Shown in pieces: positions 4,921 through 44,804 of a stretch of 64,000 nucleotides of DNA (position 1 is the first letter of the stretch; each line of letters begins with the position of its first letter). Both the position numbers and the translations under genes were made by a program. The stretch lies in the NCBI GenBank assembly GCA_008330645.1, contig VLTN01000018.1:1-64000 (forward strand), written 5' to 3'. Origin of the DNA: Cafeteria roenbergensis (taxonomy: Eukaryota > Sar > Bigyra > Bicosoecida > Cafeteriaceae). Under the pieces are notes generated by a model. The model ran no database searches, was not told where the DNA came from, and worked only from the letters and a program-made list of their open reading frames with translations.

Positions 4921-5137
4921 CGCGCGCTCCCGCCGTCGCCTGCAGTGCGGAATGCCCTGAAAGCTGTGCTGGCTTTGGCGCGCTCTCGTGTTGAGTATTG
5001 CTTCTGTGGGCCTGGTGTTTCCCATTTCTGCGTGGTTGCCCGCGAAAGCAGCACAGGCGGCGTTCAACGCAGCTGCCGATTGCGAGCGCGATGCTTTGGC
5101 GCCCAGGTTCGCGTCGCACGCCGCTCACTCAAGAAAG

Positions 5138-8100: not shown

Positions 8101-10483
8101 ATGGCGCCTCCTCGTGCGCATCGTCCCAGGCGCCGCCTTCCTCCGAGCCTGCTCCGCCGCAGGCCACATCGGCTGCCGCAACTGCTGCCCCTGCTCCTGG
8201 GCCGCGCTGCCTGCCCGACGCGGAATCCCTGAGCGCGCTTGCGTACCCCAAGCTTCGCGCCAGCCGTGCCTGCGCCCTGCGCTGCTCGTCCATGGAACAC
8301 GCAAGCGACCCTTGAAGCTCCCGTATCCTGCTGTCCGCCGCTGCCCCAAGGGCCGCAGCTGTGGACCGCAACTGCTCCTCCCACCTCGCCCGCTCCTCCG
8401 CGATTGCCGCCGCCGAAGCGCGCGCCTTGGCTCGGTGCCGCTCGGCCTCCCGCTCGGCCGCGAGGCGGGCTTCGGCCTGGGCTCGCTGCCCTGCACGCAG
8501 CTGCTTCCGAAGCTCAACCGCCCTGGCCTCAGCCGCAGCTTTGGAGTGCTCCGCGGACCGGCGGGCGGCCTGCTCAGCGGCCAGCGCCCGCTTGAGCTCC
8601 GCCAGTGCCTCCGCCGCGGCGGCGTCTTCTGACCGTGTCCCTTCCGCCTCGATGCTCGCGCGCTGCAGCGCTGATTCCGCGGCCACGGCGCGCTCCTGCC
8701 ACTCGTCCCCCTGTCTGCGGGCTGCGCTCAAGTGCCCGAGCGCCGCCTGCAGTGACAAGTGCGCAGCCTCGGCACGCTCGTCGGCCGCCCGCGCCGAAGC
8801 CTGCGCGGCTTCGACTGCGTCGTGCATCGCAGCCGCTGAACCTGCCGCTTGCCGCTCGTCGAGCAGGCTGCGCGCGCTCGTCGCTTCAGCAGCCTCTGCG
8901 CGCGCCTTAAGCGCGGCGTTTTCCTGCCCCAGGCGCTGCGCCTTCGCCTCCAGGCGCGCAATGCTCTCAGCGGCGGCAGCGGCCTCCGTTTTCGCCTCTG
9001 CCGCATCCGCGTCCGCCCGCCGCCTGGCCGACTGCTCCCTGCTCAGCGCCGCGCCCGCGGCTGCCGACTTGCGCTCCGCGGCGTCCGCTCGCTCAGATGC
9101 CGCTGCAGCGACCCTGTCCGCCCGCTCTGCTGCCTCGGTCGCTGCTCCCCGCTCGCGCTCCTCGGCCGCCGCAGCGCTGGCCGCCGCTGCGGCTCGAAGC
9201 CGCTCCACCTCTGACAAGCAAGACCGGTGGGCCTCCTCCGCCTCCCCACGCCGGCGTGCTGCGCGCTCAGCCTGTGTCTTGGCCTTGTGCAGCTCTGCCT
9301 TCAGCTCCTGAAGCTCCGTCGCGAGCGCCAGAGCGGCAGACTTGTTCCGCTGGAGCTCGGCCCTCGCCCGCCTGCCCGCTTCGACCTCGCCCGCAGCTGC
9401 CGCCGCTCGCTCCTCCGCCTCGTGCCGAGCGTCCTCGGCAGACTGCTGCTGTCGTCTTGCCTCGCTCGCCGCGGCCTGGGCCCTTTTCGTTTCGGCCCGG
9501 GACTGGGCGAGCGCACCGGCCATGTGCGCGAGGCGCTCCTCCCGGGCCTGGGCGTCTGCTGCGAGCTGCGCCTCGGCTGCCCGGCGGCGCTCTTCCGACT
9601 CCCGCAGGCGCTGCAACAGGGCCGACATGCGCTCCTCGTCCCTGGGTGCGCGCGCCTCGCCGGTGTCACTGGCGCCGGGGCCAGCGTCGGGGCCAGTGTC
9701 GGCGCCGGCAGGTGGAGGGCTGGCCGCTGCTTGTGGAGCGGGACCCAGCAACTGCGACGGGGTCGCCGGGGCATCTGACCTCGGGACCTGCCGGGGCTCG
9801 TGCGGCGGTGTCCCTCGAGCAAGAGGGCGAGCCGAGTAGGACTCCAGCGGGCGGGAGGGCGCTGCTCGTTGCGACAGCTGCCGCCTGTGCGGCGAGCAGG
9901 AGCCCGAGCCGGTGCTGGCAGGCGGAGAGATTGCCCTCACAAGGGCGCCGCTGGCGGGCGCGCCACCCCTGTGCACATCAGCCGGCCTCACTAAGTCCTG
10001 CGGGCGGGGGAGATCGGGGGTGTGGCTGCGTTTTCCTGGTGACTGCTCGGCAAGTCGCTGCTCGGCGGCACGGGCTCGCCTAGCAAGCTGCTGGACGGCA
10101 GCCGCGGACTCGGCCCGGCCCCGGCTCCACGCAAGCGCGTGGGTCATGTCCAGCGCCGCCGCAGAGTATGCTTGGTCCACCAATTCGGTGCCGCTTGGGG
10201 CCTGCACGGAGCAAACGGCCGGGGGCAGCAACGCTCGGCTGCTTCAGCGGGGACGCAAGCGGCAGGGCTGCAGCTGCCTTGGGCGCGACCAACGCACTCT
10301 CACCCGCTCTGACGAATCACGAGCGGCGTCCCGAGAGCGGAGGCGCTCCGCAATCTGTGCTTCAATCGAGTCGCGCAAGTGCCAGCGCTGCTGTGCGGCA
10401 GACCAGCTCCTCCTCGACCTCCCTGAGCTTGGGGGCGACTCAACGAGCTGTGTGTAGTCGGAGTCAGCGGGGCTGCCACTCAT
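5138..10483 (-). CDS. Long coiled-coil protein with basic Ser/Arg-rich region
   Basis: Exons: 10304-10483 and 5138-10201; product 1747 aa. The start is the ATG giving MSGSPADSDYTQLVE. The single 102-bp intron has a GTGAGA donor after codon 60 and a TGCAG acceptor, both in phase 0. Residues 1-60 contain a short amphipathic helix (SIEAQIAERLRSRDAARD). Roughly residues 265-700 form an almost unbroken Ala/Glu/Arg coiled coil. This is followed by Pro/Ser-rich disorder and a region rich in RRRRRR and SR/RS dipeptides. A second helical stretch near residue 1370 (VVDRLVAAERREATAAHSLAYLQ) precedes a disordered tail. The layout suits a scaffold or cytoskeletal protein, but there is no family signature and I assign no function. 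The gene is divergent from the KQK-repeat gene across 617 bp. Confidence 0.75.
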
Positions 10484-11100
10484 GCCTCCCAGCCCGTGCC
10501 CATGGACAGGGCGAGGAGCCAAGTGGGCGGCGCTTGGTTTTGATGACCAGCAGAGCCGCAGCGGTCACACCAAGCAACATCCCAGACCGCTTCCCCGGCC
10601 CGCGCTCCCTGGGCCTCCGGATATCAGCGCCGCCAACCCAGCGCGCCGCCCGGGATCCCTGCAAGTTGGCGCTAGCGAGGAGTCCGTGGCCGTTCCGACT
10701 GCGCATAAGCGATTTCGATGGATTTTTGGCCGTCGGTGACAGTTGCCTCTGCAACCCGTCTGCCCAGCAGCCAGCGAGGCCACACCCCGCGGACGAGAGC
10801 GTGGCGCTGGCAAGAGACCGGTCGCCAGCTGGGTGGCCTCTCTAGCTCCCCCCTCCCAGAGACCCGGAGCAGCCAGGCTTGCCTGAGCGAGCCGCCCGTC
10901 GGTGAGCAGCACTTGCCAAAACGCGTTGGCGCAACAACGAGTCGTTCACCCGGCAAGCATCGCCCTCGGCCTGCGGGGGTCTTTCCTCCGCCCGCCACGC
11001 TCGCCATGGGGTGGCGTTTGATTCGAGGCCTCCACCCTGGCTCCGCTTGCTGCTTTCGTCCCGTTGACCTTGCAGTCACCACCCGTGGATCCGAATTGTC
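10484..11100. other. Divergent intergenic region, 617 bp
   Basis: This lies between the start codons of the coiled-coil gene (minus) and the KQK-repeat gene (plus) and presumably holds both promoters and 5' UTRs. It has scattered G-runs and C-runs and slightly more A/T near 10700-10740. I see no TATA box, CCAAT box, repeat or convincing small gene. Confidence 0.5.
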
Positions 11101-14100
11101 ATGGCCGAGACCGATGCCGCCGCAAAGGCCGCGCGTGAGGCCAAATTTTTCGCTGAGCGGCGCGAGGCTGACATCGCCGAGCGCAGGCAAAAGGAAGAGG
11201 CGCAGGCGGCGGCCCTTGCGGCCCTTCCTGAGGAAGAGCGTGCGGCTGCTCTTGCGGAGCAGGAAGCGGAGGCAAAGCGTTTGCGCCGCAAGGAGGCTTC
11301 GCTCGCTCGCGAGCTTGGCACTTTCAAAGGAGGCGCCGTGGCTCGTGGCGGCACCGTTCGCGGCCGCGGCAGGGGCCGTGGCCGAGGCGGCCAGGGCAAG
11401 GCGCCATCAAGCCAGCGAGGCGCTAGCGCTTCCGGCCGATCCGAGTCGGATGCATCGCCAGACAACTCCACTTTCCCCCCTAGTCCCGCAGGCAGGCCTG
11501 CGCCCCCTCCGAGCACGCCACCTCGGCCGCCAGACGTCTCCGGAGCAGGATCAAGCCCGCAGCGTCCGCCCGGGATCAGCTCCACCCCGCCCAAGCCACC
11601 GGCGCCGCAGCCGCCCGGGGTCAAGCCTCCTGGAGCAAAGCCCCCTGGGTCCAAGCCTCCTGGCGTGAAGCCTCCCGCTGCCAAGCCCCCCGGGATGAAG
11701 CCTCCCGGCGCCGCCCCGCCCGGCGTGAAGCCCTCTCCTCCTGGGCGGGCTCCTCTCCCTCGGGTTCCGCCGTCGGGCGTAGCCAAGCCACCCGGCGTGA
11801 AGCCGTCCCCGCCCGGCGTGAAGCCGTCCCCGCCCGGCGTGAAGCCGTCCCCGCCGGGCCGGCGGCCATCCCCGCCCGGCGCTCCCTCGCTTGCGCCGAA
11901 GCCGCCTGGCGCTTTGCCGCCGGGCGTGAAGCCGGCCCCGCCCGGGCGTGGGCCGCCTGGAACGCCTCCCAGGTCGCCCGGCTCTGCCCCCGCACGCACC
12001 CCGGCCGGTCTCGACTCCGCGCCCCCGTCACCGCCTGGCCCGCCGGCGCCGCGCCCTCCAAGCTCCCCCAAGCCACTTCCCAGCGGCAACGGGCCCCGCC
12101 CCCCTGCGTCCCCCAAGGCTGCCCCCCCACGCCCACCCGGCTCCCCCGGGGGACGAGGGCGTCGGCCCCCGTCGCCCTCGGGCTCCACCAGCAGCGCGGG
12201 CACGATCCCGGACCCCCCCGCGGGCAAGCCCCCGACTATAGGTATGCCTCCTGCGCGACCCACCCTCCGCAAGCCCGCGCCACCAAGGACTGGCTCGAGC
12301 AGCCCGCAGTTGCCGCCTCGTGACTCACCGGGAGATGGGCCTCGGGGTGCGGCCAAGCCCCCTCCCATGCCGCCTCCGCCGCCAAGCCAAGCGCCTGCCA
12401 ATGGCGAGACGGCCTCGGCAAAGCAGAAGGCCACTGAGGAGGCGGCGGCGAAGCAGAAGGCCGCTGAGGAGGCGGCGAAGCAGAAGGCCGCTGAGGAGGC
12501 GGCGGCGAAGCAGAAGGCCGCTGAGGAGGCGGCGAAGCAGAAGGCCGCTGAGGAGGCGGCGGCGAAGCAGAAGGCTGCTGAGGAGGCGGCGGCGAAGCAG
12601 AAGGCTGCTGAGGAGGCGGCGAAGCAGAAGGCCGCTGAGGAGGCGGCGAAGCAGAAGGCTGCTGAGGAGGCGGCGGCGAAGCAGAAGGCCGCTGAGGAGG
12701 CGGCGGCGAAGCAGAAGGCTGCTGAGGAGGCGGCGGCGAAGCAGAAGGCCGCTGAGGAGGCGGCGAAGCAGAAGGCTGCCGAGGAGGCGGCGAAGCAGAA
12801 GGCCGCTGAGGAGGAGGCGGCGAAGCAGAAGGCTGCTGAGGAGGCGGCGGCGAAGCAGAAGGCCGCTGAGGCGGCGGCGAAGCAGAAGGCCGCTGAGGAG
12901 GCGGCGAAGCAGAAGGCCGCTGAGGAGGAGGCGGCGAAGCAGAAGGCTGCTGAGGAGGCGGCGGCGAAGCAGAAGGCCGCTGAGGAGGCGGCGGCGAAGC
13001 AGAAGGCCGCTGAGGAGGCGGCGGCGAAGCAGAAGGCCGCTGAGGAGGCGGCGGCGAAGCAGAAGGCCGCTGAGGAGGCGGCGGCGAAGCAGAAGGCCGC
13101 TGAGGAGGCGGCGGCGAAGCAGAAGGCCGCTGAGGAGGCGGCGGCGAAGCAGAAGGCCGCTGAGGAGGCGGCGGCGAAGCAGAAGGCCGCTGAGGAGGCG
13201 GCGGCGAAGCAGAAGGCCGCTGAGGAGGAGGCGGCGAAGCAGAAGGCCGCTGAGGAGGAGGCGGCGAAGCAGAAGGCCGCTGAGGAGGCGGCGGCGAAGC
13301 AGAAGGCCGCTGAGGAGGCGGCGGCGAAGCAGAAGGCCGCTGAGGAGGCGGCGGCGAAGCAGAAGGCTGCTGAGGAGGAGGCGGCGAAGCAGAAGGCCGC
13401 TGAGGAGGCGGCAGCGAAGCAGAAGGCCGCTGAGGAGGAGGCGGCGAAGCAGAAGGCCGCTGAGGAGGAGGCGGCGAAGCAGAAGGCCGCTGAGGAGGCG
13501 GCGGCGAAGCAGAAGGCCGCTGAGGAGGCGGCGGCGAAGCAGAAGGCCGCTGAGGAGGCGGCGGCGAAGCAGAAGGCCGCTGAGGAGGCGGCGGCGAAGC
13601 AGAAGGCCGCTGAGGAGGCGGCGGCGAAGCAGAAGGCCGCTGAGGAGGAGGCGGCGAAGCAGAAGGCCGCTGAGGAGGCGGCGGCGAAGCAGAAGGCCGC
13701 TGAGGAGGAGGCGGCGAAGCAGAAGGCCGCTGAGGAGGAGGCGGCGAAGCAGAAGGCCGCTGAGGAGGCGGCGGCGAAGCAGAAGGCCGCTGAGGAGGCG
13801 GCGGCGAAGCAGAAGGCCGCTGAGGAGGCGGCGGCGAAGCAGAAGGCTGCTGAGGAGGAGGCGGCGAAGCAGAAGGCCGCTGAGGAGGCGGCAGCGAAGC
13901 AGAAGGCCGCTGAGGAGGAGGCGGCGAAGCAGAAGGCCGCTGAGGAGGAGGCGGCGAAGCAGAAGGCCGCTGAGGAGGAGGCGGCGAAGCAGAAGGCCGC
14001 TGAGGAGGCGGCGGCGAAGCAGAAGGCCGCTGAGGAGGCGGCGGCGAAGCAGAAGGCCGCTGAGGAGGAGGCGGCGAAGCAGAAGGCCGCTGAGGAGGCG

Positions 14101-17100
14101 GCGGCGAAGCAGAAGGCCGCTGAGGAGGCGGCGGCGAAGCAGAAGGCCGCTGAGGAGGAGGCGGCGAAGCAGAAGGCCGCTGAGGAGGAGGCGGCGAAGC
14201 AGAAGGCCGCTGAGGAGGAGGCGGCGAAGCAGAAGGCCGCTGAGGAGGAGGCGGCGAAGCAGAAGGCCGCTGAGGAGGAGGCGGCGAAGCAGAAGGCCGC
14301 TGAGGAGGCGGCGGCGAAGCAGAAGGCCGCTGAGGAGGAGGCGGCGAAGCAGAAGGCCGCTGAGGAGGAGGCGGCGAAGCAGAAGGCCGCTGAGGAGGCG
14401 GCGGCGAAGCAGAAGGCTGCTGAGGAGGAGGCGGCGAAGCAGAAGGCCGCTGAGGAGGAGGCGGCGAAGCAGAAGGCCGCTGAGGAGGCGGCGGCGAAGC
14501 AGAAGGCCGCCGAGGAGGCGGCGGCGAAGCAGAAGGCTGCTGAGGAGGCGGCGGCGAAGCAGAAGGCTCTCGATGCGGCTGCAGCCGCGGAGGAGGCCGC
14601 GGCCAATCGCCGAGCCGCGGACGAGGCGTCGCGCCTTCGCTCGCAGGCTGCAGTGCGACTCCGCTCGGAACGGGAAGCAAGGGACCACGCTGAACACGTG
14701 GCTGCTCACGAGCAGGCGACGCAGCATCGGCCGCTGCAGAGCGTCGCCTCCGCAGGCCGGGAAGGCGGAGGCAAGACGCTCCTGTCAAGCAGACCACCTC
14801 CGTCGCCCCCGCAAGGAGCAGCCACTCATTCTGAGGCTGCTGCGTCTCCTGATGCCGACAGAGAGTCGCTCGCAACCTTCGGCGGGACCGACGTGCCGCA
14901 ATCCGCGGTCGTTGCCGAGGTGTACAGAGCAAACTCTCCGCCGGCTTCGCCTATGCCCAGCAGCGGCTCGACGCCGTCGCGTGAGGCTACTCGCCGCGTC
15001 ATGGCCTCCCTGGCGGCCGCTCTCGCGTCGCGCGATGCGGATGCCATCGCTGATGCCCTGGACGAGAGTGCTGGCCTGAGCGACGAGACCGTGCATGACC
15101 TTCGCGCCGCCGCTCGCGAGGTGATGAGACGCATGCGGGTGGAGCGGGACGCGTCGGCAGACCTGCGCCTGGCACTTGCCAGGGGCGACCGCGACGACAT
15201 CATCGCCGCCCTGGCGCGCGTGGAGCAGGTGGGCGGGCTGCTCGCCAAATCGCCAGACGCGGCTGAGGCCCGGCGCCGGCTGGCAAACAGGCCGGGGCTG
15301 GTGGCCGACCGGCCGGCGCTTGCTCCAACCGACCCGCAGCTGGAGCAGTCGCCCCCGGCCGCCACTGAGCGAGAGGAGATTGTCGCTACCATCGCCGACC
15401 TTCAAGCGCAGCTGCGGGATCTGCGCGCCGCGCGCGTGGCCTCCACGCCTCCCCCCTTCGCGTCATCGCTGGGCGAGGGCGAGGAGCCGGACCATGCCCC
15501 GGGTGGGGCGGCGCCAGATGCACCCGGAGTGCCCGCTGGCGAGGCAGCTCCGCCGCCACCTCCACCCCCCTCTACGCCGCGGCCGCCTGCTTCGAGCGCG
15601 GACGACGACGACGACCACGTCGACGAGGGCGAGGCAGAGCCTCGCCGCCCCCCGAGCCTGGTGGAGGCTGCTGCCGCGATGCCCGCACCCGCTGCGCCTC
15701 CGGCAGCCTCTCCGCCGCCTGAGCCGCGCAGCTTCCTGGCGCGACAGGCAGCTTTGATCGGGAACGGCCACCGGGCGCCTGGAACAGCCGGGGCCACGCC
15801 ACCCCTGCTCGTTCTGCAGGACACGGTGGGCCCTGCCTTCAGCCCGCTGACGGCGCCCTCAGCGCGGCAGGCCGGCAAGGCGGACAAGGTGGTGGTGGGA
15901 GGCGCGGTGCTCCAGCGGGGGTCTGGCGACAGGTGGACAGTGCGCTCGCGAGCGTCGTCGCTGCTGCAAAAGCCCGCTGCTGCCGCACCAGGGCAGCCCA
16001 TGGAGGGTGCGGTGCCTGCGTCGGAGATGGCGCGCCGCGCCTCGAGCTCGCAGGGGGCCAGGCTGCTTGACTCAGACCGGTGGCGAGAGCAGCCTGGCTC
16101 CCTCGAGGCCGGGCTCGGCGCCAGCGCGAGCTCTCCGGCTGGGCAGGCCGCGGCAGTCGCAGCCGCAAGCGCGGCCGACCTCCAGGCCCTGCGAGCGTCA
16201 GCGCTGGCAGTGGTTGCCGCTGCCCGGGCAGACCCGCGGACGGCTGCAAGCCCCAAACCGTGGCGCCATTCGCCAGCCCGCGCCGCTTCCGGCGGCGGCC
16301 AATCCTCGTCGGTCCGTGCTGATGCCGCTTCTCCCGAGGCTCCCTTCACAGGTCCCATGCCGGAGCAGCGGCGCTCGCCGGAGCAGACGCTGGCTCGCTC
16401 GCGGGCCATCCTGGCCGAAGTGCGCGAGGCCAACAGCCGAATGGAGCGGCGCGCCGCCGTGGCAGGGAGTCCCCTGCTGGGCATAATGCTGGCCGGGGCG
16501 GCGCCCATCGCGCCCTCGGGCGGCAGCGAGAGCCGGCTGCACTACGATCCGCTTGGCCCGCAGTCGGAGGAAAGCTATGCCGACGAACGCGCATCGTCGG
16601 TGGGCAACGGCGCTGACGCCACGTCAGTGAGCGACAGCCTGCTCGCCGAAGCCGCGTGGCTGGCAACCGAGAGTTCGCGCGCCTTGGAGCAGCACGCAAG
16701 CCCTCGGCCCGATCACGACTCCCCGCCCGGCGAGGCCAGCCCGTTGGTCTCTGCCAGGCTCCCGGGGAGCGGGCCGCTCGTGCTCCACGAACACGGCCGG
16801 GCGGGGCGGGTCGGGCAGCCTTCCACCTCTGCCCGGAGGCGATCGCGGGAGCCAGTTGCGACGGCTGCGGCAGCGGCCGGATCATCATTGGCCTCGGGCC
16901 ACCACCCGCATCACCAATACCAGCAGCAGCAACAACGCCAGCAGCAGCAGCAGCCGGACCAGCGGCCGGCTCGCAAGCTGACGAAGCAAGAGGCCCTCGA
17001 GGCGGCGTCGCGACTGCATCGGTCTCAGACGCTGGTTTCGCACGTGCGCGCTGCCCAGACGGCGGCGCTGCACGGCAGGACCATGGACCCGAACGTCAGG

Positions 17101-24996: not shown

Positions 24997-27341
24997 TCAG
25001 CGAAAGCGCGAAAACCAGCCGAGCGGCTTGGCAGTGGCCTTGGGCTGGTGCATCAGCACCTTGGCCTCCATGAAAGGGTCGAGCGCGCCGGCGCCCATCT
25101 CGCGGCCCAGCCCGCTCATCTTGTACCCGCCCCACGGCATAGACGGGGACACCGGCTGATTGCAGTTTTCCCACACCGTTCCTGCGCGGATGCGCTTCGA
25201 GATGGCGCGCATCTCCGCGTCGTCCTCAGAGAAGACGGCAGCAGCTGCGGGTCACGCAAACAGACGGGTTGCAGCTGGCGAGGGTTTGGGGGGCAAGGGG
25301 GCACGGCTTGCGGCGGGCCCAATGCGCATCGTGGCGCAAGGAGCAGTGCGGCGCAAGCTCGCGAGAGCCGCAAGTGTGGACGCGAACACAGCTCGCCCGA
25401 TGCTGGGGTTGTGCGCGATCCGAGGGGGGTTACTCACCGAGACCGAACCTGCTGTCGTTTGCCATCTCAACGGCTTCGTCCGTGGTGGCGAAGGGGGTGA
25501 TTGAGACGACAGGGCCGAACACCTCTTCAGACCAGAGAGTGTCCCCGGGCTTGACCCCCGTGACAACGGTGGGCGCCATGAAGAAGCCGTGGTGGAGGTC
25601 GTCGGGGGTAGCGCCACCGCACGCGATGGAGTTACCCTCCGCAACGGCCACCCTGAGGAAGCCGCGCACCTTGTCCAGCTGAGCCCCGGAGATGAGCGGG
25701 CCCATGTCGTGGCAGCCGTCTCCGAACGGCCCCCCGACAGTGAGCGCACGGGCCTCGGTCTGCACGGCGCAAGGGAGGGCGCGGGCGCGGGCGCGGGTGC
25801 GGTCGGGGGCTTGGAGGGTTCGGGCGCAATCCGTCGGCCAGCGGGGCGCCTTGAGTCGGTCAGCAGGCGTGGCAGCACCCGTCTATGTGGCCACACAGAG
25901 AGGCCAGCGCGCCGCGGCACTCAGCGTGGAGCGAGAGAATGAACCCGGCCACGGGGCACCTGAAGCCGCGATCAGCCCATCCACCCCAACGACGCTGTGA
26001 ACGACCCACCCCCTGCCCCGGGGCGGGGCGGCCACGAGCCACAGCCTCGCCACTACGCGCTGGCTGGCAGGCTGGCTGGCCGGCCGCTGCGTCTCTCACC
26101 ACCAGTCGCTCCGTGAGCTCTGCCTGCAGCTCCCTGGCCACGAGGATTCGCGACGTGGCGCTGCAGATCTGGCCGCAGTTCCAGAATGCGCCGAACAGCA
26201 GCCACTCAACGGTGCGGTCCAAATCGGCGCTCGACGTGACGATGGCGGGGGACTTTCCTGCGGCGGGCAGAGAGGCAGGGGCGGGGGGAGGGGGAGCGGT
26301 CTGGGTCTCGCGCGCAGCCCCGGCCACAGCGAGGCACTCGCTCGCGTGGAAAGCGAGCCCAGCTCGCTGGAGAGGCAGGGAGAAGGCGAGGAGGGGCGGG
26401 CGGGCGGGGGGAAGGGGGGGGGGGGGCCAACGGGCAAGAACCGGGCGTGGGCCCCCCCCCCCCCCCCACCGCAATGTCGTGGCTGCGGGTGCTGGGCTCT
26501 GCCGGCGGCAGGGGCAGTCGCTCCCGGCGCCAGGCAGCAGCTTCTCACCGCCCAGCTCCAGCGTGACGGCCTTGGCGCCGCCCGAGGCTGAGCGCATCAC
26601 CGCTGCGCCTGTGGGCACGCTGCCTGTGAAGGACACCTTGTCGACGTCGGGGTGCTCTGCCAGCGCGGCGCCGACGTCCCCTGCCCCGGGAAGGACCGAT
26701 ACGCAGCCGTCGGGCAAGCCTGCCTGCTGCAGGACGCTGGCGAGGGCGAGGGTGGTGTACGGGGAGAGCTCGGAGGGCTTTACGACGATGCTGCACCCAG
26801 CTGCCAGGGCTGGCGCGATCTTCCAAGCGGCCATCATTGCGGGGTAGTTCCACGGGCAAACCCCGGCGACAACGCCCAGGGGCTCCTTCACCAGCGTGCC
26901 GTCGAGCGCGACGTCGGGCAAGTGCCGCTGCGGCGCCTCGGTGACCAGCGCCCGCGCGAAGCCGGCGCTGTGGCGGAAGGCCGAAACACACTCGCTCATG
27001 TCGCCCTCAGCCTCTCGTAGCGGCTTTCCCGTGTTGAGGGACTCAAGCGCCGCGAGCTGGGGAGTTTGCTCCTCAATGAGCGCGGCGGCCTGGTCGAGAA
27101 CTGCGGCGCGGGCCTCGGGGTCAGTCGTGGACCAGCCCTCGAACGCCGACCGGGCGGACGCGACAGCGACACCGACCTCAGTCATGCCGCACCGCCCACT
27201 GACCAGCGTGTCGCTGGAGTTGGCGGGGTTGGCAATGGTCAAGATGCGGCCGCCCAAGGGCTTGACAAACCGGCCCTCGATGAACGCCTCGGTCCGCAGG
27301 AGCTTGCGCGCCGCGTCAAGGGCTGCTTGCCCCCTCAACAT
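24997..27341 (-). CDS. ALDH9-like aldehyde dehydrogenase (probable 4-trimethylaminobutyraldehyde dehydrogenase)
   Basis: Exons: 26549-27341, 26100-26257, 25438-25759, 24997-25244; product 506 aa, the usual ALDH length. It oxidises an aldehyde with NAD(P)+. Visible hallmarks are PWNYP of the cofactor site, FTGSVPTG, the general base Glu262 in LELGGK, the nucleophile Cys296 in FWNCGQICSATSR, EEVFGPV, and the C-terminal PWGGYKMSGLGRE. Glu and Cys are 34 residues apart, as in ALDH2. FTGSVPTG also occurs in animal ALDH9A1 (trimethylaminobutyraldehyde dehydrogenase). The nearest alternative is betaine-aldehyde dehydrogenase. The neighbouring carnitine-type dioxygenase favours ALDH9. The chosen ATG gives MLRGQAALDAARKLL. 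The frame stays open upstream to 27596, so an N-terminal extension is possible. Introns are 291, 340 and 193 bp. Confidence 0.88.
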
Positions 27342-27489
27342 TCCTCTCGCCTGCCGGCCTCTGCTGTGCTGGGCTGCCCCGGGCTCGGCGCGCCGGGGCT
27401 GCTCGGTGGCGACTGGCAGAGCAGGCCGACGCGCGTGCCAGCTCGGGGCTGCTGCTCCTCCTGCCGGCCCACCACTTTCGGGGGGCGGG
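27342..27489. promoter_or_regulatory. Shared divergent promoter of the carnitine-type gene pair
   Basis: Only 148 bp separate the chosen start codons of the aldehyde dehydrogenase (minus) and the dioxygenase (plus). Both promoters and 5' UTRs must lie here or overlap the coding starts. No TATA-like element is evident, so an initiator or CpG-type bidirectional promoter is inferred. Confidence 0.5.
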
Positions 27490-29192
27490 ATGCTCACCAG
27501 GCAGCTGGGGCGCGCGTTGGCCGCAGGCCGAGGGCCGGCGGCACGGGGGCTGGCCACGGCAAGCTGCGCGGGCGGCGAGAGCGTTACGATTCGCAATGAC
27601 AGTTCCGAGCTGGCGAATCTCTCCGCCCATTTCCTCCGTGCGGAGTGGTGAGCGATGGCGGCGCTGCGTGGGAAACGCGTAGCTGGCCTGGCTTGGCGCG
27701 GCGCTTCGTGAGGGCCGGTGCGGTCCGGGACGGGCCTGCTCGGCGAGGGTATGTTCTCGTCGCAATTGCAATTGCGTTTGCCAGCCTTCCGTCGCGGCCG
27801 ACCAATTGCCGTGTGGCGTCGTTCGCACCGCTCCGGATCGGCCCGCAGTTATTGCCCCGAGTGCCGCCACGGGGCCACAAACCAGAGGCTAGTCGACATC
27901 GCCGCCAGCGCCGGCGTGACCGCGCACTCCGCGGCCATCGCTGAGGACGGCAGCCTTAAAGTTGCTTTCTCCGACGGACACGCGTCCACCTTTGCGCCGC
28001 GCTGGCTGGAGCTGCACTCGAGGTCCAGTGAGCCTGATGGCAGCCGCCTCCGCCGCATTTCCTCCCTGGCCGAGTGCCTTGAGGCGCAAGGCGGTCCGGC
28101 CCTGCCGGAGTCGCAGCGCCCGCTGCCTCTGGACGCGCCCCCGCGTGCGCCCTGGGCGGCCATCGAGGAGGGCGGGTCCCAGCTAGCCGGCGTCCTTCGC
28201 AACTTCCGGCGCCACGGCGCCGTTGTGCTTGAGGGTGCCGCAACCGGCGATGACGTCATCGAGAGGCTCGCCCAGGCCCTCGGCGGGGAGCGAGCGACGC
28301 ACTACGGCGCTCGGTTTCACGTGCTTTCGAAGCAGCAGCCCGACTCCCTTGCCAACACGGGGCACGCGCTGGGATACCACACCGACCTGCCGTACAGGGC
28401 CGAAGTGCCGTCCGTCCAGGCGCTGCACTGCCAGCAGAGCGACGCGGAAGGAGGCCTCTCCCTCCTCACAGACGGATTTGCGGCCGCTGAACAGCTCTAC
28501 AAGGACGACCCGATGGTGAGTGGCTTGGAGCCGCACGGCGAGGCGGCGGTGGCCGGCCCTGCAGCAGCCGCGCTCGCTCGACGCCCAGCGCAGCGTGAGG
28601 GCCCCGACCGCACGCGCTCGTCGCGATACCGTGGCGAGGGGCACCTGCGTGTGTCCGCTTTGATGCCCTCCCCCCCCCTTCCCCCCCGGCTCCCGCCGCG
28701 GCTGCTGTGTCGCGCTCGCAGGCATTCGCGGAACTGGCCTGCACGCCGCTGTCCTTCTGCTGGCAGGGACGCGAGGGCGTGCTGCTGCGCGCTCAGCGAC
28801 CCGTGATTGAGCTGTGCCAGAACCTGACGCTACGTGCCGTGAACTTCGACAACCGGAATGTGCGGCTGCGGCTGCTGCCTGAGAGCTTGGGAGGGGTGGC
28901 TGGCAAGTCGCTGCTCGAGGCGTACTCAGCGCTCGGAGCGCGCATCGACGCGCCAGAGAAGACCCTCAAGTTCCGCTTGGAGCCGGGGGAGGTCATGATG
29001 TTCCACAACCGGCGCTTGCTGCACGGCCGGACCGCGTTCGACGCCTCCTCGGGAGCGCGAAAGCTGCACGGGTGCTATCTGGACATGGACATGATCGAGT
29101 CGACGGAGCGTGCGCTCGAGCTGCAGGCCGAGGGAGCGATGACTAGGTTTGACGCTCCCGACTTTGCTCGGGGCTCCTTTTGGGACGCGTGA
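27490..29192 (+). CDS. Gamma-butyrobetaine/trimethyllysine dioxygenase family protein
   Basis: Exons: 27490-27647, 27849-28515, 28722-29192; product 431 aa. Family members are Fe(II)/2-oxoglutarate hydroxylases of carnitine biosynthesis. The N-terminal zinc domain is rebuilt across intron 1: LRAE then C53-Y-C-P-E-C58, the CxCxxC ligands seen in human BBOX1 (LRDNCPCSDC). The catalytic domain has iron ligands His230 and Asp232 in GYHTDLPY, the LHC and GG blocks, and distal His376 in RRLLHGR, with Arg378 as likely 2-oxoglutarate ligand. HTDLPYRAEVPSVQ resembles gamma-butyrobetaine hydroxylase; DGFAAAEQ resembles trimethyllysine dioxygenase. I lean to the former. The first 25 residues (MLTRQLGRALAAGRG) look like a mitochondrial presequence. 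It is transcribed divergently from the ALDH9-like gene. Confidence 0.88.
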
Positions 29193-29338: not shown

Positions 29339-30608
29339 ATGGCCGCGAGCGGGGTGAGAACTGCCGCTCAGCACCTGGTTTCCTGCTCGAGGCCTCGCTG
29401 ACTGCTCGCGCGCCCGTGTGCGTCGGTGCGTGCGTCGATTGCCCGCGTTGCCGGGCAGGCTCCGTCGCGCAAACTGCCCGGCGCTTCGCCCCTCGGCTGA
29501 CACCCCCCCCCCCCGCCGCAGGATGCCGAGACTGGCGACGGCCTGGAGTGGCACGGTGAGTTTGACCCCCTTGGGGCTGGCCGGGCCGGTTGCTTCGCTG
29601 CTCGAGGCGCAGCGGGCGCGACTGCTGCTCTTTTCCTCACGCTGCTAGCGGCTCCGAGGCTGCCTTCCCCCGGTTCCCGCAGATATTCAGCACACCAAGT
29701 CCGCGCCCGCGGCACCTGCGGTGCCTGCGGCACCCTCCTCGGCCCCGGCTGCTGCGCCCGCGCCCTCTGGCGCTGCGGATGCCGCGCAAGCCGCTTCGGC
29801 CTTCAGCTTCCTCTCCCTCGCGTTTTATCGCCCGCTGTTCGACGTGACGACCAAGGGCGTGCTCAGGCGGCTGCTTGCTGCCTTTTGGGGCTTCTTGCGG
29901 CCGTCGCTTCTCCAGTTTGCAGACTACGTTCCGACCTCGACGGAGGACGCGGACGCTCCGACCGGGGCGACGGCGCCGATGGACAGCGGCGGGATTGTCC
30001 CGGGCTTGGGGGAGGCCGACGCCAGCGATGACGCCAGCCTTGAAGGCGGCGCCGAGGGGGGTCCTGGCGGCCCCGTCTCTCTCTTCACTACCAAGCCCGA
30101 CCTCTACGGGCCGCTGTGGATCAACGCGACTCTCGTCTTTCTCATCGGCGCCATGGCGAACTTCGGGGCGTGGGCCACGTTCGACCCCGCGGGCGGCGAG
30201 TCCCTGTTCAAGTACGACTTCTCCTTGGTGACGCAAGCGTTTGGGCTGGTCTTCGGCGCTCTCGTCCTGGTGCCAGCGGCCGCTTGGGCTGTGCTCCGCT
30301 ACCACGGCGCGCCCCCCGTGGCGCTCACCACGCTTGTCTGCCTGTGGGGCTACTCCATGGTCCACTACATCCCGGCCACGATGCTCTGCGCCGTCCCAAG
30401 CGTGGCCCTGCGTTGGGCGGCGGCCGCCTTTGCCGCCGCGGGGGCGGCCCTGTTCCTCATCCGCTCCCTAGTGCCCCTGCTCCGCGCAGCGCACGCTTTT
30501 GTGCCTGCTGCTACGGGCACGATCGCGGTGCTGCAGCTGGTGGTGGGGCTGCTGCTGCGGCTCTACTTCTTCTCCTTCTCGCTCCCGAGCACGCCTGCCA
30601 AGGCCTGA
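29339..30608 (+). CDS. YIPF1/2-like Yip1-domain Golgi protein
   Basis: Exons: 29339-29353, 29522-29555, 29683-30608; product 324 aa. The two tiny first exons encode MAASG and DAETGDGLEWH. Donors GTGAGA and GTGAGT and acceptors CCGCAG fit all phases. Exon 1 is the least certain part. The Yip1 domain starts at the family block PDLYGPLWINATLVFLIGAM, close to PDLYGPFWICATLVFAI of human YIPF1. The later WGYSMVHYIPATMLCAVP matches YGYSLFIYIPTAILWIIP. Five membrane segments are visible between about residue 155 and the end, with a Pro/Ala-rich cytosolic N-terminus. Yip1-family proteins cycle between ER and Golgi and bind Rab GTPases. The gene lies 146 bp downstream of the dioxygenase on the same strand. 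Confidence 0.85.
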
Positions 30609-38400: not shown

Positions 38401-39713
38401 ATGGCGAGCACAACTCCTGCTGCTGCCCCCGCGAACGGCGGCCCAATCGTCGAAGGTGCGCGAGCGTGCGTACGCCGTGCGGCGCACCAGGCCCATGGGC
38501 CGCGATGCTGGGGAACGCCGGGGCGAAAAGGGGGAGCGCCTGGTCTGCTCCGCCATTGTTCATTGACCACGGGACGGCTGTGCGTGCCTCGCGCGGCCCG
38601 TGGTGCGCAGATTATTCTGGGCTGAGGGTGCTCGATGAGCCCTTCCGCGTCAGTGGAGAGGTCGTCAAGGGCTTTGGCCGCGGCTCCAAGGAGCTTGGCA
38701 TCCCCACGGCCAACCTTCCCATCGAGTCCCTCGGCGCCGCCGTGGACTCCCTCGAGAGCGGTGTCTACTTCGGCTGGGCCGCGCTGAGCGGCAAGGGCCC
38801 CTTCAAGATGGTCATGAGCGTCGGGTGGTGAGTGCCCCCCGCCTGCCTGCTCTGTGACCACGAGGCCGCATTCGCCGGCGTGTGGGCGGAGCGTTGCCCT
38901 GTCTGGCTCCCCACCGCAGGGCCATCGCTGCCCCGCTCCCGGCCGCCCCGCCCCCCCCCATCCCCTGTGCTGCGTGGACCGCAGGAACCCGTACTACAAG
39001 AACTCCAAGAAGACCATCGTGAGCCCCCCCTGCCCCGGCCCCCAACCTCGATGCGCGGAGCCCCTCTCGACAACGCGCGCGTGCGACGAGTGCGTGGCCG
39101 CGCCCGGCCGCTGGTGCCACGGCAACTCGCTGCTCCCCCCGGCCCGCGAGCCCCGCAGGAGCCCCACCTCTTGCACACCTTTGAGGAAGACTTTTACGGC
39201 GAGGACCTCCGCCTCGTTGTCACCGGATACATGCGGCCAGAGAAGGACTACGCGGGCCTCGGTGAGACCTTGCCCGTTGCGCAGCGCCGCCCTCGCGGCC
39301 GACGAGCACAGACGCCGGCGTGGATGCGCGCGCCCACGCGCGCGGGCACCTGATCGCATGTTCCTGCTGTCAGGCACGCCCGTTCGCAAACTGCGCTCCT
39401 CCTCCTCCTCCTCATCCTCCTCCTCCTCCTCCTCTGGCTCCGCCTGCTGCCTGCGGCTTTCCATCCCGCGCTCACTTCCCCGTGCTTCCGCCCCGCAGAC
39501 GAGCTTATCGCGGCGATCCGCGGCGACGTCACGTTCGCGTGGGAGTCACTGGACAAGGCCCCGCACGCCGCTCTGGCGGCGGACCCCTTCCTCTCAGCGG
39601 CGGCCAGCGCCACGACGGCACCGGCCAGCGCCACGACGGCACCGGCCAGCGCCACGACGGCACCGGCCAGCGCCGAGGCCCCGAGGCCCCGCCCGCTGAT
39701 GCGTGATGCGTGA
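38401..39713 (+). CDS. RFK: Riboflavin kinase
   Basis: Exons: 38401-38455, 38611-38827, 38985-39018, 39159-39261, 39499-39713; product 207 aa. It transfers phosphate from ATP to riboflavin, making FMN. The match to human RFK is close and continuous across introns: [20 protein letters not shown] (substrate loop with the PTAN motif), [29 protein letters not shown] and GYMRPEKDY, then a helix IAAIRGDV. There is no FAD synthetase or phosphatase domain, so it is the monofunctional animal/fungal type. The N-terminus [14 protein letters not shown] is short and unlike a signal. The C-terminus ends with three copies of an Ala/Thr/Pro heptapeptide (SATTAPA). Donors are GTGCGC, GTGAGT, GTGAGC, GTGAGA. 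The 34-bp exon 3 is fixed by the WNPYYKN junctions. Confidence 0.95.
39394..39437 (+). repeat. (TCC)n microsatellite in riboflavin kinase intron 4
   Basis: A near-perfect run of TCC triplets with one CATCC interruption lies on the sense strand, in the middle of intron 4 about 60 bp upstream of the acceptor. Confidence 0.9.
39601..39673 (+). repeat. 21-bp coding repeat at the 3' end of riboflavin kinase
   Basis: Three identical 21-bp units (GCCACGACGGCACCGGCCAGC) encode ATTAPAS at the extreme C-terminus, beyond the conserved fold, so copy number is probably free to vary. Confidence 0.9.
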
Positions 39714-39918: not shown

Positions 39919-42903
39919 TCAGGCGCATCGACACGCCACGATGACCCAGACAGCCAGCACGTCCTCCGCATACGCGAACACGCGCACCCGCACCGCCAGC
40001 GACACCGCCTCTCGGCGGGAGCACACCACCCCCTCGGCCACCGCGGAGGCTCGCAGGAAGGCCGCCAGGCGCGCCGGGGAGGCGTGCCCCACCTGGAAGG
40101 GAAATGCCGAGAACGAGTGGCCGGGCGGCACGCAGGCACGCACGGCCGCGCGGAAGTCGTCGGCCCCGAATGGCCGGCCGGTAAGGCGCTCCGACTCGTA
40201 CGCAGCGAGGGCGGGGGCCAGGGAGTGCTCCAGCCGCGGGTCGAACGGGGCCTCGGGCAGGGCGGCCTCCTCTCGCCACGCCAGCGCTTCGGCGCGGAGG
40301 CACTGCTCCAGCGCGAAGGCCAGCGGGCCCTCCGCCACCGTCGGCGGGCACAGCGCCGGGGCCGGGGGCAGCGTCGCCGCGAGCGCCCCGATGGCACCTT
40401 GGTCAAAGGGCAGCCACTTGCCCTCGTCCCGCAAGGCCCAGCTACAGCCGCTCACCGACGAAGTGGGCTGCACGTTGGCGAGCAGAGACTCTTCGTTGAA
40501 CAGGCACGCAATGGTGCGAAACCGCCGGCCATCGGCCGTCGGCCAGTCCGGAGCCGAGCGCTCGCCCGTGAGCGGCTCCCAGAAGCGGACCACGAGCCCG
40601 CCCTCCTGCTCCCCGGCCCCGCCAGCCGCGTCGTCCAGCGACCTGTCGTCCAGCGACACCACCCACTCGTGCGTCCCCTCCACGCCCCTGGCGTCCACCC
40701 ACGTGCCCACCGCCACGAAGGCGTCGAGGCCGAAGCCGCGCAGCAGCGAGCAGAGCAGCGTGGCGTGGTCCGCGGCCGTGCCAGACCGCATGGCAAGCAC
40801 GGTGAAGGGGGAGTGCCACGGCGCGGTGTCGGGCTCGTCGAACTCCGCGTCCGGGCTCCAGGCAGACTCCGGGTCCCAGCCATCGCCTGCAAACTCGCCC
40901 TCGCCCCCGGTGGCGCCGCTGCCCGCGCCGCCTGCGCCCGAGCCGGGGCTGCCCGGCGCCCCGCTGCCTCGCCGAGCGGCACCGCTTCGGCCTCGCCCGC
41001 GGCCCCCTGTCGGCGCGCCCCCGTCTCTGCTGTGCCCTGCGCGCAGGCGCCCGTCTCCCTTGCCCGGGGCAGCGGCGCCAGCGCGCTCCCGCTGCTCCGA
41101 CCGGCGGTCCGGGCCAGCTGTTCCCCCCAGGGGGTTGTGTCCCCGGAGCGGGAGGAGCGCAACGAGCCTGGCGGCGTGGCGGGGGGACTCCACCAGCCTG
41201 CCCGCGCGCATGGGCCGCACAAACGAGGTCACGGCGCGCTGGACCCCCCCCTCGTCCGGCGCGAAGATTCTCACCGGGCGAAACCGCAGATCCGGGCGGC
41301 GCGCCACCGCGCCGTCCCACCACCGCCGCGCAGCGAGGAACAGTCGCCTCGAAGCAGACGCCTGCTCCTGCTCGATCGCGCGGACGCGGGCCTCCACGTC
41401 GGCCGGCAGAGCCATGCCGGGCACACGGGAGCCGCTGGCGCTGACGTCGGCGAGAGAGGCAGGGGCGCGCCTGGGGACGAGCTCCAGCCGGCAGGCCAAC
41501 GCACCGGCCGACAGACCGGCCTCTCCCGCCGTGCCGGCTGCGGGGAGCTCGACGGTGAGCGACGCTGAGCCCGTGGCTAGGACGCGGCGCCACTCCACGC
41601 ACACGTACGACACAAGTTCCACTCGGAACGCCGTCCCTCCCAGCTCGCCTAGACCGGCGGGCAGCCCAGCGGAGGCCGCCGCCGCGGCCGTGGGCTCGGC
41701 CGCCCCTGCGCTGCCACGACCCACAGCCGCAGCTTGCGGGCCCGTGGCGACGATGCGCGTGACCGCAAGCTGCAGCGGGTCGGCCGACGCCATCAGCCGC
41801 CGCAGGCCCCCCCCGGGCGGGACGGCGTCCAGGCTCGGGAACAGGTCCAGCAGAAACGCGGCGTCGAACGACGGGCTCTCGCTCGCCGGCACTGGAATGC
41901 CGCGAAACCGCTGGCCCCGGAAGCAAGCGTGCAGCACGAGAAAGGAAGTTTCGGCCCTCGGCCTGGCCGCAGTGCGCAAGCCCGTCGAGCCCGCGGAGGC
42001 GGCGGAGGCGGCGGAGCGGCCGCCGTCGTCCTGGTCGGGAGCCATGTCTGAGAGGAAGGCGGACCCAGCCTGCACGTGGATGCGCAGGTACTTGCGTCTG
42101 GGGTCCAGCGGGCGGGGCCCGTCGCCCTGCCTGAGACTCAGGTCGGCAGAGCAGGCGGCAGCCAGCGCCGCAAGAGACACCAGATCCTCGTCCTCGTCCT
42201 TGTCCTTGTCATCCGAGAAGGCCAGGCCGCCGCTGCCGCTGCCGCTGCCGTTGCCGCCGAGCGCGGCGTCGGCGGCGTCGCCATCGCCACCCAGTCCACC
42301 CGACAGGCTGCTGCGGCCGGCGTCAGCCTCTGCTGCAGAGGGCGACTGCTTCCCGTCCTTGCTGCGCCCGGTGTGGCTTGTAGCCTGCCCATGAGGCGGC
42401 TCCACTCTGCGAGCCTCGCAAGCAATTGTGCCGGCCACGGCGAGGGATGGCGGCCATGCAACGGCGTCGGCCAGCCCACCGGGCGTGTGCCCAAGCCGCC
42501 AGCGCGTGCGACGCCTGAGTGCGTTGCGTGCTCCGCAGCGAATGGCATCAGTGGCTCGCATCCAAGCGCGCATCTCACCCGGACGCCAGTCCATTGACCA
42601 CGGCGTCGACCACGCCTGCCTCGCGCAGGACGTGCCGAACCTTTTCTGCCTGGCTCATGCCAGCGAGAGCCGCGCTTCCCAGCTGCGATGGAGCAGAACG
42701 CGCGCTTACATGGTGCTGATCAACCTGAGGCATGCGCTCGCAGGCGGCCCGCGCGCTTGCCCGCCCCAACGATGACCGGTGGGTTCGCCGTTTGAGCCCC
42801 TCACCTCTGCTTCCCGCTCGCGGAGAACAGCCCGGACCTCGTCGTACACCCCTTGCGACTGGAGGTATCCGTGCACCTGGTCTCGGAGGGCCTCGGCGGC
42901 CAT
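39919..42903 (-). CDS. CEP76: CEP76 centrosomal protein
   Basis: Exons: 42805-42903, 42579-42682, 39919-42406; product 896 aa (human 659). CEP76 limits centriole reduplication. Exon 1 (MAAEALRDQVHGYLQSQGVYDEVRAV in two parts) and exon 2 (KVRHVLREAGVVDAVV) match the human N-terminal helices. Exon 3 carries DPRRKYLRIHVQAGSAFL, the C2 domain (FRGQRFRGIPVPA, FLLDLF, CVEWRRVL, SLTVEL), the block VRIFAPDEGGVQRAVTSFV and RAGRLVESPRHAARLV, then the transglutaminase-like region (DHATLLCSLLRGFGLDAFVAVGT, HEWVV, FWEPLTG) and a C-terminus closing LAVRVRVFAY. Extra length comes from Gly/Ala insertions. The human GDCEDHA reads GTAADHA here, so the Cys position of the peptidase-like fold is lost while His is kept. 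Shares a 195-bp divergent promoter with TRAPPC4. Confidence 0.93.
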
Positions 42904-43098: not shown

Positions 43099-43807
43099 AT
43101 GGCGGCGGCCGCAACGTCCCGGCTGTACTACAGCGTGTACGTGATCAACAAGTCGGGCTCCATCTCCTACGAGAGAGTGAGGCCACCAAGCGCCCGCGAG
43201 TTTTGGGGCGCCTTTCGCCTCTGGTGCACGCGAGAAGCGTGCACGGCTCGTTGCTGGCAGCGGCGCAGCCATGCCTCCTCTGGCCCGCGCTCACGACTCG
43301 GCTTGTTCCGGTGCCGCGCAGTGGGTGTCTCCGCTGCCCGCCCCCGAGACGACCGCAAACGACCACATCCGCATGGCTTCTACGCTCCATACGGTGTACA
43401 ACATGGCTGCCCAGGTAAGGCGGTGCCTCGCGCTGCTGTGCCTCACGCGCTTGTGCGCGCGCCATGGCGCAGTTCGCGCTAGGGCGGTGCGGTGCAAGTG
43501 CGATGTGCGCGCTTCCTCCCCCCCCCCCCCTCACGCACAGGTGGCCCCCGAGGGCACCAGTGGTATCCGAGAGGTGCGCACCAGCGCGGTGACCATCTTC
43601 ACCCTGCCGACTCCGACCGGAATCACGTTTGTGGTGACCGCCCCTCCGGACACGCGCGTCAAGGTGGCCGATGCGGCCGTGCTGTTCCGCCGGCTGTACC
43701 GCAGCTATGCGGACATCATCCTGAAGGACCCCTTTGCGAACCCGGACCAGCCGATCCGGTCGGCGGACTTCACAGCGGCGGTGGTGGATATCATGTCTGG
43801 CCGATAG
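43099..43807 (+). CDS. TRAPPC4: TRAPP complex subunit 4 (Trs23)
   Basis: Exons: 43099-43176, 43322-43414, 43541-43807; product 145 aa. TRAPP subunits of this sedlin/longin-like family form the core of the Rab1/Ypt1 exchange factor at ER-Golgi membranes. Exon 1 gives SRLYYSVYVINKSGSISYER, matching FSVYVVNKAGGLIYQ of human TRAPPC4. Exon 2 gives the helix DHIRMASTLHTVYNMAAQ. Exon 3 begins VAPEGTSGIREVRTSAVTIF and continues PTGITFVVTAPPD, then the last helix. The SGI.x(2).xET/T block separates it from TRAPPC1. The PDZ-like insertion of the animal protein is absent, so this is a compact form. Introns are 145 and 126 bp; the second ends CACAG, the only non-GCAG acceptor in the window. Confidence 0.9.
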
Positions 43808-44264: not shown

Positions 44265-44804
44265 TCAGGGCGGGCTGCCCGTCGCTGCCTCGGCGGGCGC
44301 CCCGGGCCCGGCACGGACGGTGGCAGCACTCCCCGCGCGCAGAGCATCACGGAGCTCTGCCACGTCGCCGACGAAGGCCCCGTCAGGGAGGGGCGCGGGT
44401 TGGGGCGCCAGCTCGCTGCAGCGGTGGCGGCGCATCCCGAACAGGCCGCGGCAGGAGCCAAAGTCGCCAGCCGTGCGGGGCACGACGTGCACGTGCAGGT
44501 GCATGACTTCTTGGCCTGCCTCTTCTCCGATGTGCGCGGCGAGGTTGTAGGCGTCGCGGCCCGTGGCGGCTCGCACGGCGCGAGAAGCGCGAGCGACGGC
44601 GACTCCAAAATCTGCTGCCTCCTCGTCTGACAGCTCGTGGATCCCGAGAACGCACCGCTTGGAGATGACCAGCGTGTGGCCCGCCACAAGCGGGAACTTG
44701 TCCATGAAGGCTGCCGAGTGCTTGGTCTCGAACAGCAAGGATTCCACAAACGACGCCGGCCGAGTGGCCAGGAGGTTGGCGAAGATGCTGCGTCCGGCGG
44801 CCAT
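44265..44804 (-). CDS. FHIT-like histidine-triad diadenosine hydrolase
   Basis: An intronless frame of 179 aa starting MAAGRSIFANLLATRPA; the frame is open upstream, so MSWVLLMTS at 44951 is an alternative start. HIT proteins hydrolyse nucleotidyl phosphates through a covalent His intermediate. The triad is HLHVHV (AGQEVMHLHVHVVPRTAGDF), very close to human FHIT [20 protein letters not shown]. The upstream block PLVAGHTLVISKRCV matches the FHIT PVVPGHVLVCPLRPV region, and the helix LSDEEAADFGVAVARASRAV follows as expected. The nucleotide-binding N-terminal strand (LLFETKHSAAFMDK) is present. FHIT cleaves Ap3A to AMP and ADP. HINT is less likely because the PRxAGDF tail is specific to the FHIT branch. 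The tail beyond residue 130 is Ala/Gly-rich and not conserved. Confidence 0.85.
   Translation of the reverse strand: MAAGRSIFANLLATRPASFVESLLFETKHSAAFMDKFPLVAGHTLVISKRCVLGIHELSDEEAADFGVAVARASRAVRAATGRDAYNLAAHIGEEAGQEVMHLHVHVVPRTAGDFGSCRGLFGMRRHRCSELAPQPAPLPDGAFVGDVAELRDALRAGSAATVRAGPGAPAEAATGSPP

Follow-up and report, generated by a model that had tools for sequence, protein, structure and literature searches.

A head-to-head ALDH10-type aldehyde dehydrogenase and GBBH-superfamily dioxygenase gene pair in Cafeteria roenbergensis, a possible carnitine-forming unit

Two genes that lie head to head on opposite strands at positions 24997-29192 of a 64,000-nucleotide stretch of Cafeteria roenbergensis DNA (contig VLTN01000018.1; hereafter the window) raise the question of whether their products act in one metabolic pathway and, if so, in which. 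A first-pass annotation had taken them for ALDH9A1 and BBOX1, the enzymes of the last two steps of L-carnitine synthesis. We find an ALDH10-type aldehyde dehydrogenase (ALDH) and an Fe(II)/2-oxoglutarate (2OG) dioxygenase of the GBBH-like/TauD superfamily, both of which look built for trimethylammonium compounds. Our interpretation, which we hold tentatively, is that the pair works on a quaternary-ammonium compound, the likeliest course being the conversion of 4-trimethylaminobutyraldehyde (TMABAL) to gamma-butyrobetaine and on to carnitine by the ALDH10 and a very divergent GBBH-superfamily enzyme. On the best reading of the evidence, carnitine would be the leading but unproven product of consecutive steps on such a substrate.

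Both genes are intact in spliced models predicted, like their start codons, from the sequence. All five introns across the two genes start with GTGAG, end with GCAG and measure 193-340 nt, and the first intron of the dioxygenase gene interrupts the first Cys codon of its CYCPEC motif. The motifs reported in the first-pass annotation are all present, for the ALDH Glu262, Cys296 (residue numbers exact in spliced numbering) and FTGSVPTG, and for the dioxygenase CxCxxC, HTD (residues 230-232) and LLHGR (374-378). Pfam returns Aldedh for the ALDH (2e-151) and TauD (4e-36) with GBBH-like_N (3e-10) for the dioxygenase, E-values which argue that the observation is not due to chance. The distance of 148 bp between the two ATGs was likewise given correctly, although it hinges on the choice of ATG, since the dioxygenase frame is open upstream as far as 26845 and holds six earlier in-frame ATGs, all within exon 1 of the ALDH gene. 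A shared bidirectional promoter is compatible with this divergent spacer, which distance, as the sole indication, makes a candidate for one.

Among PDB sequences, the eight best matches to the window ALDH, at 429 to 397 bits, are betaine-aldehyde or aminoaldehyde dehydrogenases of plant type; next comes 4q92, a bacterial betaine-aldehyde dehydrogenase from S. aureus (376 bits). Human ALDH9A1 (6vr6, a TMABAL dehydrogenase) reaches 331 bits, against 429 for the top ALDH10. Five entries among the best eight are named as ALDH10 in PMC4046141. In a tree of C-terminal halves only, with 36 rows (6 references and 30 loci), the window ALDH falls in an eight-row ALDH10-type clade with spinach, maize and five bacterial rows (support 100/99), its position within this clade being weakly supported (90/73). 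A constraint that unites it with human and cod ALDH9 lowers the log-likelihood by 55.4 units and is rejected by the approximately unbiased (AU) test (p-AU 5.2e-5), whereas grouping with the two plant ALDH10s costs 0.85 units and is not (p-AU 0.41). Over the C-terminal half, 108 of 241 residues are identical to spinach and 108 of 242 to maize (45%), compared with 95 of 239 for human ALDH9A1. The ALDH9A1 label is thus wrong, in spite of the common superfamily and overlapping aldehyde substrates, and it fails on a ground that the first-pass annotation had itself laid down, namely a grouping with betaine-aldehyde dehydrogenases.

The window ALDH shares with the plant ALDH10s (spinach SoBADH, 4v3f/4a0m; maize, 4i8p) not only the clade but also the catalytic Cys and Glu and the aromatic box, since SoBADH Y160, W167, W285, W456 and W443 are all conserved in an alignment to 4v3f. 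It differs from them in its SRFR end, an Arg/Lys-rich N-terminal stretch and the residue at the position 441 gate, where Thr447 aligns with SoBADH Ala441; the nearest bacterial rows (L156-L158) have Ile there. In ALDH10s, Ile at this position blocks betaine aldehyde, whereas enzymes with Ala or Cys take it; 1.6% of known members have Thr, and the SoBADH mutant A441T retains significant betaine-aldehyde activity, A441S being active too (PMC4046141). Because Thr447 occupies the gate and the A441T mutant is active, betaine-aldehyde activity of the window enzyme seems plausible. By analogy the same may be said of TMABAL, whose oxidation is listed for ALDH10s (PMC11362210) and which the Arabidopsis ALDH10s oxidise to gamma-butyrobetaine (PMC7823795), so that a gamma-butyrobetaine step by the window ALDH, and with it a link to carnitine, stays possible.

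The dioxygenase, to judge from its PF06155 and PF02668 domains and its Fe and 2OG ligands, is a member of the GBBH-like/TauD superfamily. It keeps the Fe ligands H202, D204 and H347 of human BBOX1, the 2OG-binding Arg360 and the Cys triad. It falls short of all three equivalog cut-offs: it reaches 275 bits on the NCBIfam TmpA model (NF049936), 125 short of the cut-off of 400, 230 on BBOX (TIGR02409; cut-off 414.75) and 147 on TMLD (TIGR02410; cut-off 268.3), whereas a human BBOX1 fragment scores 546 on the BBOX model. Among PDB sequences TmpA 6npb is the best match (188 bits), with human BBOX1 at 104.

As a yardstick we used the TmpA-minus-BBOX bit margin, scored for the human BBOX1 fragment and 10 of 17 chosen dioxygenase stretches (L041, L033, L009, L015, L027, L049 and L053 were left unscored). 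The margin is positive in all five proteins with a TmpB-like neighbour (L003 +187, L005 +61, L014 +69, L034 +58, L089 +72) and negative in all five without one (L001 -71, L002 -22, L008 -3, L010 -15, L011 -14); it is +45 for the window dioxygenase and -254 for the human fragment. Three of these proteins with a TmpB-like neighbour, from Actinomycetota (L005, on a plasmid record, L014 and L034), score just above the TmpA cut-off and retain CxCxxC, a motif absent from 6npb and from the proteins of L003, L004 and L007. A different protein (G077, tree row L100) has a TmpB-like neighbour and a TmpA-type pocket and yet scores 523 bits on TIGR02409, which indicates that the BBOX cut-off is loose rather than specific; this equivalog model may mislabel some TmpA-type proteins as gamma-butyrobetaine dioxygenase.

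The phylogeny of the dioxygenase was built from 139 extracted sequences, reduced to 69 rows by dropping 69 duplicates of 80% similarity and L139. In the resulting main tree, the window protein falls within a 37-row clade (96/91) whose other 36 rows are the PDB TmpA, 34 proteins with a TmpB-like gene in their locus (the IMG/VR contig L089 included) and L133, a short locus without one. Its terminal branch is 3.31 changes per site long (about 4.2 in a reduced tree), and constraining it to the BBOX half (p-AU 0.182), to human BBOX1 alone (0.101) or to the two TMLD rows (0.149) is not rejected in any case. When ten long or doubtful rows were taken out, leaving 59 of the 69, it moved out of the TmpA clade to a place between BBOX-like and TmpA rows, where a constraint with three bacterial BBOX-like rows gave a p-AU of 0.214; a firm placement thus failed. 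The TmpA lean of the main tree is also countered by near-equal tblastn scores of the top relatives (204 bits for Halomonas-type BBOX-like, 198 for TmpA-like proteins) and mean identities (34.2% and 33.3%). At 21 columns separating TmpA from bacterial BBOX-like rows, the window protein has the TmpA state in nine, the BBOX-like state in five and neither in seven. Searches of 198 and 299 genomes, partly overlapping earlier ones (8 and 33 matched), gave at best 39% identity along most of its length. Judged against these prokaryote collections, the protein is a deep lineage of its own. The assignment to BBOX1 in the first-pass annotation therefore holds at the level of the superfamily, and as an identity it is unproven.

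Pocket positions 177, 181, 191, 194, 205, 292, 293, 294 and 366 (human numbering) are occupied by Y F S N L D N R Y in the window protein, compared with Y F N Y N N N R Y in TmpA, F F N Y L N N W Y in Halomonas-type rows and Y W N Y Y N N A Y in human BBOX1. The BBOX pocket, with Asn191, Asn293 and an aromatic cage, is thus incomplete: N293, Y177 and Y366 are kept, N191 has become Ser and Y194 Asn. None of the 68 other rows of the tree combines Ser, Asn and Asp at 191, 194 and 292. Ser191 by itself is found in four bacterial rows (L001, L062, L097, L099) and is in itself no bar to BBOX, since two of them (L097 and L099, from G064 and G136) exceed the BBOX cut-off. Relative to TmpA 6npb, a member of the same two-domain family with 35% identity, the window protein shares Tyr177, Phe181, Asn293 and Arg294, carries the CxCxxC that 6npb lacks, and has Ser, Asn, Leu and Asp in place of Asn, Tyr, Asn and Asn at 191, 194, 205 and 292. 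Human BBOX1 (3o2g) has the domain family, CxCxxC, HTD...H, the 2OG Arg, Tyr177 and Tyr366 in common with it, and differs (27% identity) by Phe for W181, Leu for Y205 and Asp for N292 in addition to the two changes above. The anion ligands are N191 and N293 in human BBOX, and N187, N287 and R288 in TmpA (PMC9296572). Overall, this appears to be a functional enzyme whose substrate pocket has changed.

The N-termini of both proteins are rich in Arg and Lys and may direct mitochondrial import. The first 35 residues hold five K/R and one D/E in the dioxygenase, and seven and three in the ALDH; the peak helical hydrophobic moment of the former, 0.50, lies above the 90% point (0.41) and below the 99% point (0.52) for 18-mers of the same protein. 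An SKL-type C-terminal tail is a peroxisomal signal, and the ALDH, ending in SRFR, has none.

In the scheme that we favour, the ALDH10-type enzyme would act first, converting a trimethylammonium (or omega-amino) aldehyde by oxidation into the corresponding acid; the dioxygenase would hydroxylate a trimethylammonium substrate, most simply the acid released by its partner. With TMABAL as the starting compound this would yield gamma-butyrobetaine and then carnitine, the two enzymes taking the places of ALDH9A1 and canonical BBOX1. We prefer this order because the product of ALDH10s from TMABAL is a trimethylammonium acid, the type of substrate that BBOX-type enzymes use, and because no choline-oxidising member of the dioxygenase group appeared among the literature matches listed, which were excerpts. 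Of the original proposal of the last two carnitine steps, what stands is that both kinds of enzyme handle trimethylammonium compounds and that ALDH10s of Arabidopsis are reported to make gamma-butyrobetaine; the carnitine pathway is possible, as one of several readings.

Several observations weigh against it. The dioxygenase scores higher on TmpA than on BBOX and below the cut-offs of all three families, and the BBOX residues N191, Y194 and N292 are all replaced. In the ALDH, Trp is retained at a site whose occupation by Phe or Ala is reported to favour TMABAL (PMC11362210). An Arabidopsis ALDH10 double mutant had low gamma-butyrobetaine and unchanged carnitine (PMC7823795), so that the enzymes leading to carnitine look unsettled, at least in Arabidopsis. 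Within the window, none of the 20 other segments scanned with Pfam contained a TMLH or aldolase gene. Finally, an ALDH10-level match near the dioxygenase was found in none of 89 prokaryote or viral loci with dioxygenase relatives, a sample made up of 8 of the 39 plasmid records, the top 80 of 579 genome relatives and one IMG/VR contig, and in which ten loci were shorter than 12 kb.

The pairing is thus without precedent in the sampled loci. A TmpB-like gene was present in 47 of them and any ALDH match in three, two of which were weak and partial (60-65 bits); the third was L089, the one relative obtained from viral contigs in the alignment scan, the single-protein scan having given none. L089 (positions 1-10804) encodes consecutively a phosphonoacetaldehyde dehydrogenase, a TmpA above the cut-off and a TmpB-like gene. 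Its set of TmpA, TmpB and ALDH was considered as a precedent and dismissed, the ALDH being a phosphonoacetaldehyde dehydrogenase (768 bits, cut-off 636). The contig is classed as viral by IMG/VR and its other frames look phage-like by eye, so these genes could be phosphonate-use cargo. Among the literature matches listed on carnitine and betaine pathways in algae or plants (open-licence papers, which are no proof of absence), no such gene pair was described.

This lack of precedent also suits the strongest alternative, namely that the two genes are neighbours by chance in a gene-dense genome, the ALDH10 being an aminoaldehyde dehydrogenase that serves polyamine or stress metabolism and the divergent dioxygenase being unrelated to it. 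Gaps also look tight elsewhere around the pair: the next long minus-strand frame, in whose scanned part no Pfam match was found, begins at 24797, 200 bp past the ALDH stop, and the frame of a Yip1-family gene is listed from 529 bp past the dioxygenase stop. On the other side, the two families both act on quaternary-ammonium or omega-amino compounds, and the three microalgae listed in PMC7823795 carry few ALDH genes (6, 7 and 9), which makes a fortuitous ALDH-dioxygenase adjacency unlikely. Assuming about 15,000 genes and two neighbours, we estimate its frequency at about 1 in 1000, and we consider mere coincidence of neighbours unlikely overall.

Choline is known to be oxidised by choline dehydrogenase or choline monooxygenase. 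These established routes (for the monooxygenase, PMC6157903) speak against a reading in which the order of steps would be reversed, the dioxygenase hydroxylating choline or phosphocholine two carbons from the nitrogen to give betaine aldehyde hydrate, which the ALDH10 would turn into glycine betaine. The idea is speculative and draws on a TmpA-like regiochemistry and on Thr447: TmpA, the best-scoring family, hydroxylates a trimethylaminoethyl compound at the carbon beside phosphorus (PMC10574752, PMC9296572), which by chemical inference corresponds to the carbinol carbon of choline, and Thr447 at the gate is compatible with betaine aldehyde, as the A441T mutant illustrates (PMC4046141). The loss of one anion-binding Asn through N191S would fit a carboxylate-free substrate, but DfmD has Ser at this position and takes a phosphonate (PMC9296572), so Ser191 alone does not imply an anion-free substrate. 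Moreover, Arg294, a phosphonate ligand in TmpA (PMC9296572), is retained, and the excerpted literature matches listed named no choline-acting superfamily member. We regard glycine-betaine synthesis by this pair as distinctly unlikely, and the more specific proposal of a new route, in which a BBOX/TmpA-derived dioxygenase oxidises choline or phosphocholine, perhaps in the mitochondrion, and the head-to-head ALDH10 completes the conversion, as less probable still.

We give equally little credence to phosphonate use, in which the dioxygenase would be a TmpA of eukaryotes with 2-trimethylaminoethylphosphonate as its substrate. TmpA is its top NCBIfam and PDB match, 35 rows of its main-tree clade either represent TmpA or come from loci with a TmpB-like gene, and it has Arg294 and Tyr177 as TmpA does. 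Yet the TmpA score lies far under the cut-off, the Asn residues at 191 and 205 are lost, the reduced tree sets it between the two groups and the AU test keeps the BBOX side. No TmpB-like match was found in the window (best E 2.5), where a spliced or divergent copy could escape. Glycine betaine and phosphate are direct products of the HD oxygenase TmpB (PMC10574752), so a phosphonate route needs no betaine-aldehyde dehydrogenase, and a version of the pathway requiring one was dropped for this reason.

Least probable of all is a trimethyllysine hydroxylase beside a TMABAL dehydrogenase (carnitine steps 1 and 3 instead of 3 and 4), for which the mitochondrial location of TMLHE would match the possible presequence of the dioxygenase and the p-AU of 0.149 leaves room, but TMLD is, of the three families, the one on which the dioxygenase scores lowest (147 of 268 bits), and the TMLD state occurs in only 1 of 29 columns separating TmpA from TMLD, against 13 with the TmpA state and 15 with neither (two TMLD rows only).

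An ALDH10 beside a GBBH-superfamily oxygenase is a concrete candidate pair for the steps that look unsettled in Arabidopsis. If choline were the substrate, the pair would open a new way into the synthesis of the important osmolyte glycine betaine. On a practical matter, the unusual pocket and the TmpB-linked protein above the BBOX cut-off indicate that automatic 'gamma-butyrobetaine dioxygenase' labels need care.

Table 1. Coordinates of the gene pair and of other features in the window
Feature	Position	Strand	Details
ALDH10-type aldehyde dehydrogenase	24997..27341	-	exons 27341-26549, 26257-26100, 25759-25438, 25244-24997; 506 aa
Spacer between both inferred ATGs	27342..27489	.	148 bp, GC 0.78; candidate shared promoter
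Fe/2OG dioxygenase of GBBH/TmpA superfamily	27490..29192	+	exons 27490-27647, 27849-28515, 28722-29192; 431 aa
Possible mitochondrial presequence, dioxygenase N-terminus	27490..27594	+	first 35 residues, MLTRQLGRALAAGRGPAARGLATAS...; composition and helical moment
Yip1-family gene	29799-30584		score exactly at family cut-off
Riboflavin kinase exon	38628-38822	+	
CEP76	39934-42282		
Sybindin/TRAPP-family exon	43541-43795		
HIT protein	44352-44804		
Protein kinase gene	47815-49070		at least 2 exons (47815-48000, 48192-49070)
Chromo-domain segment	54239-54775	-	
TPR39/IML2 protein	59875-62052		
VIT1 homologue	63305-63793		

The window has a GC content of 66-77% in 2-kb steps; together with spliced genes and neighbours of eukaryote type this gives it a eukaryotic look, and CEP76 suggests a protist or alga that bears centrioles. 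Apart from the genes listed in Table 1, it contains a 30-bp tandem array at 12416-14567 with 72.5 copies and 95% matches, which is open on both strands and whose plus strand encodes a KQKAAEEAA-type repeat.

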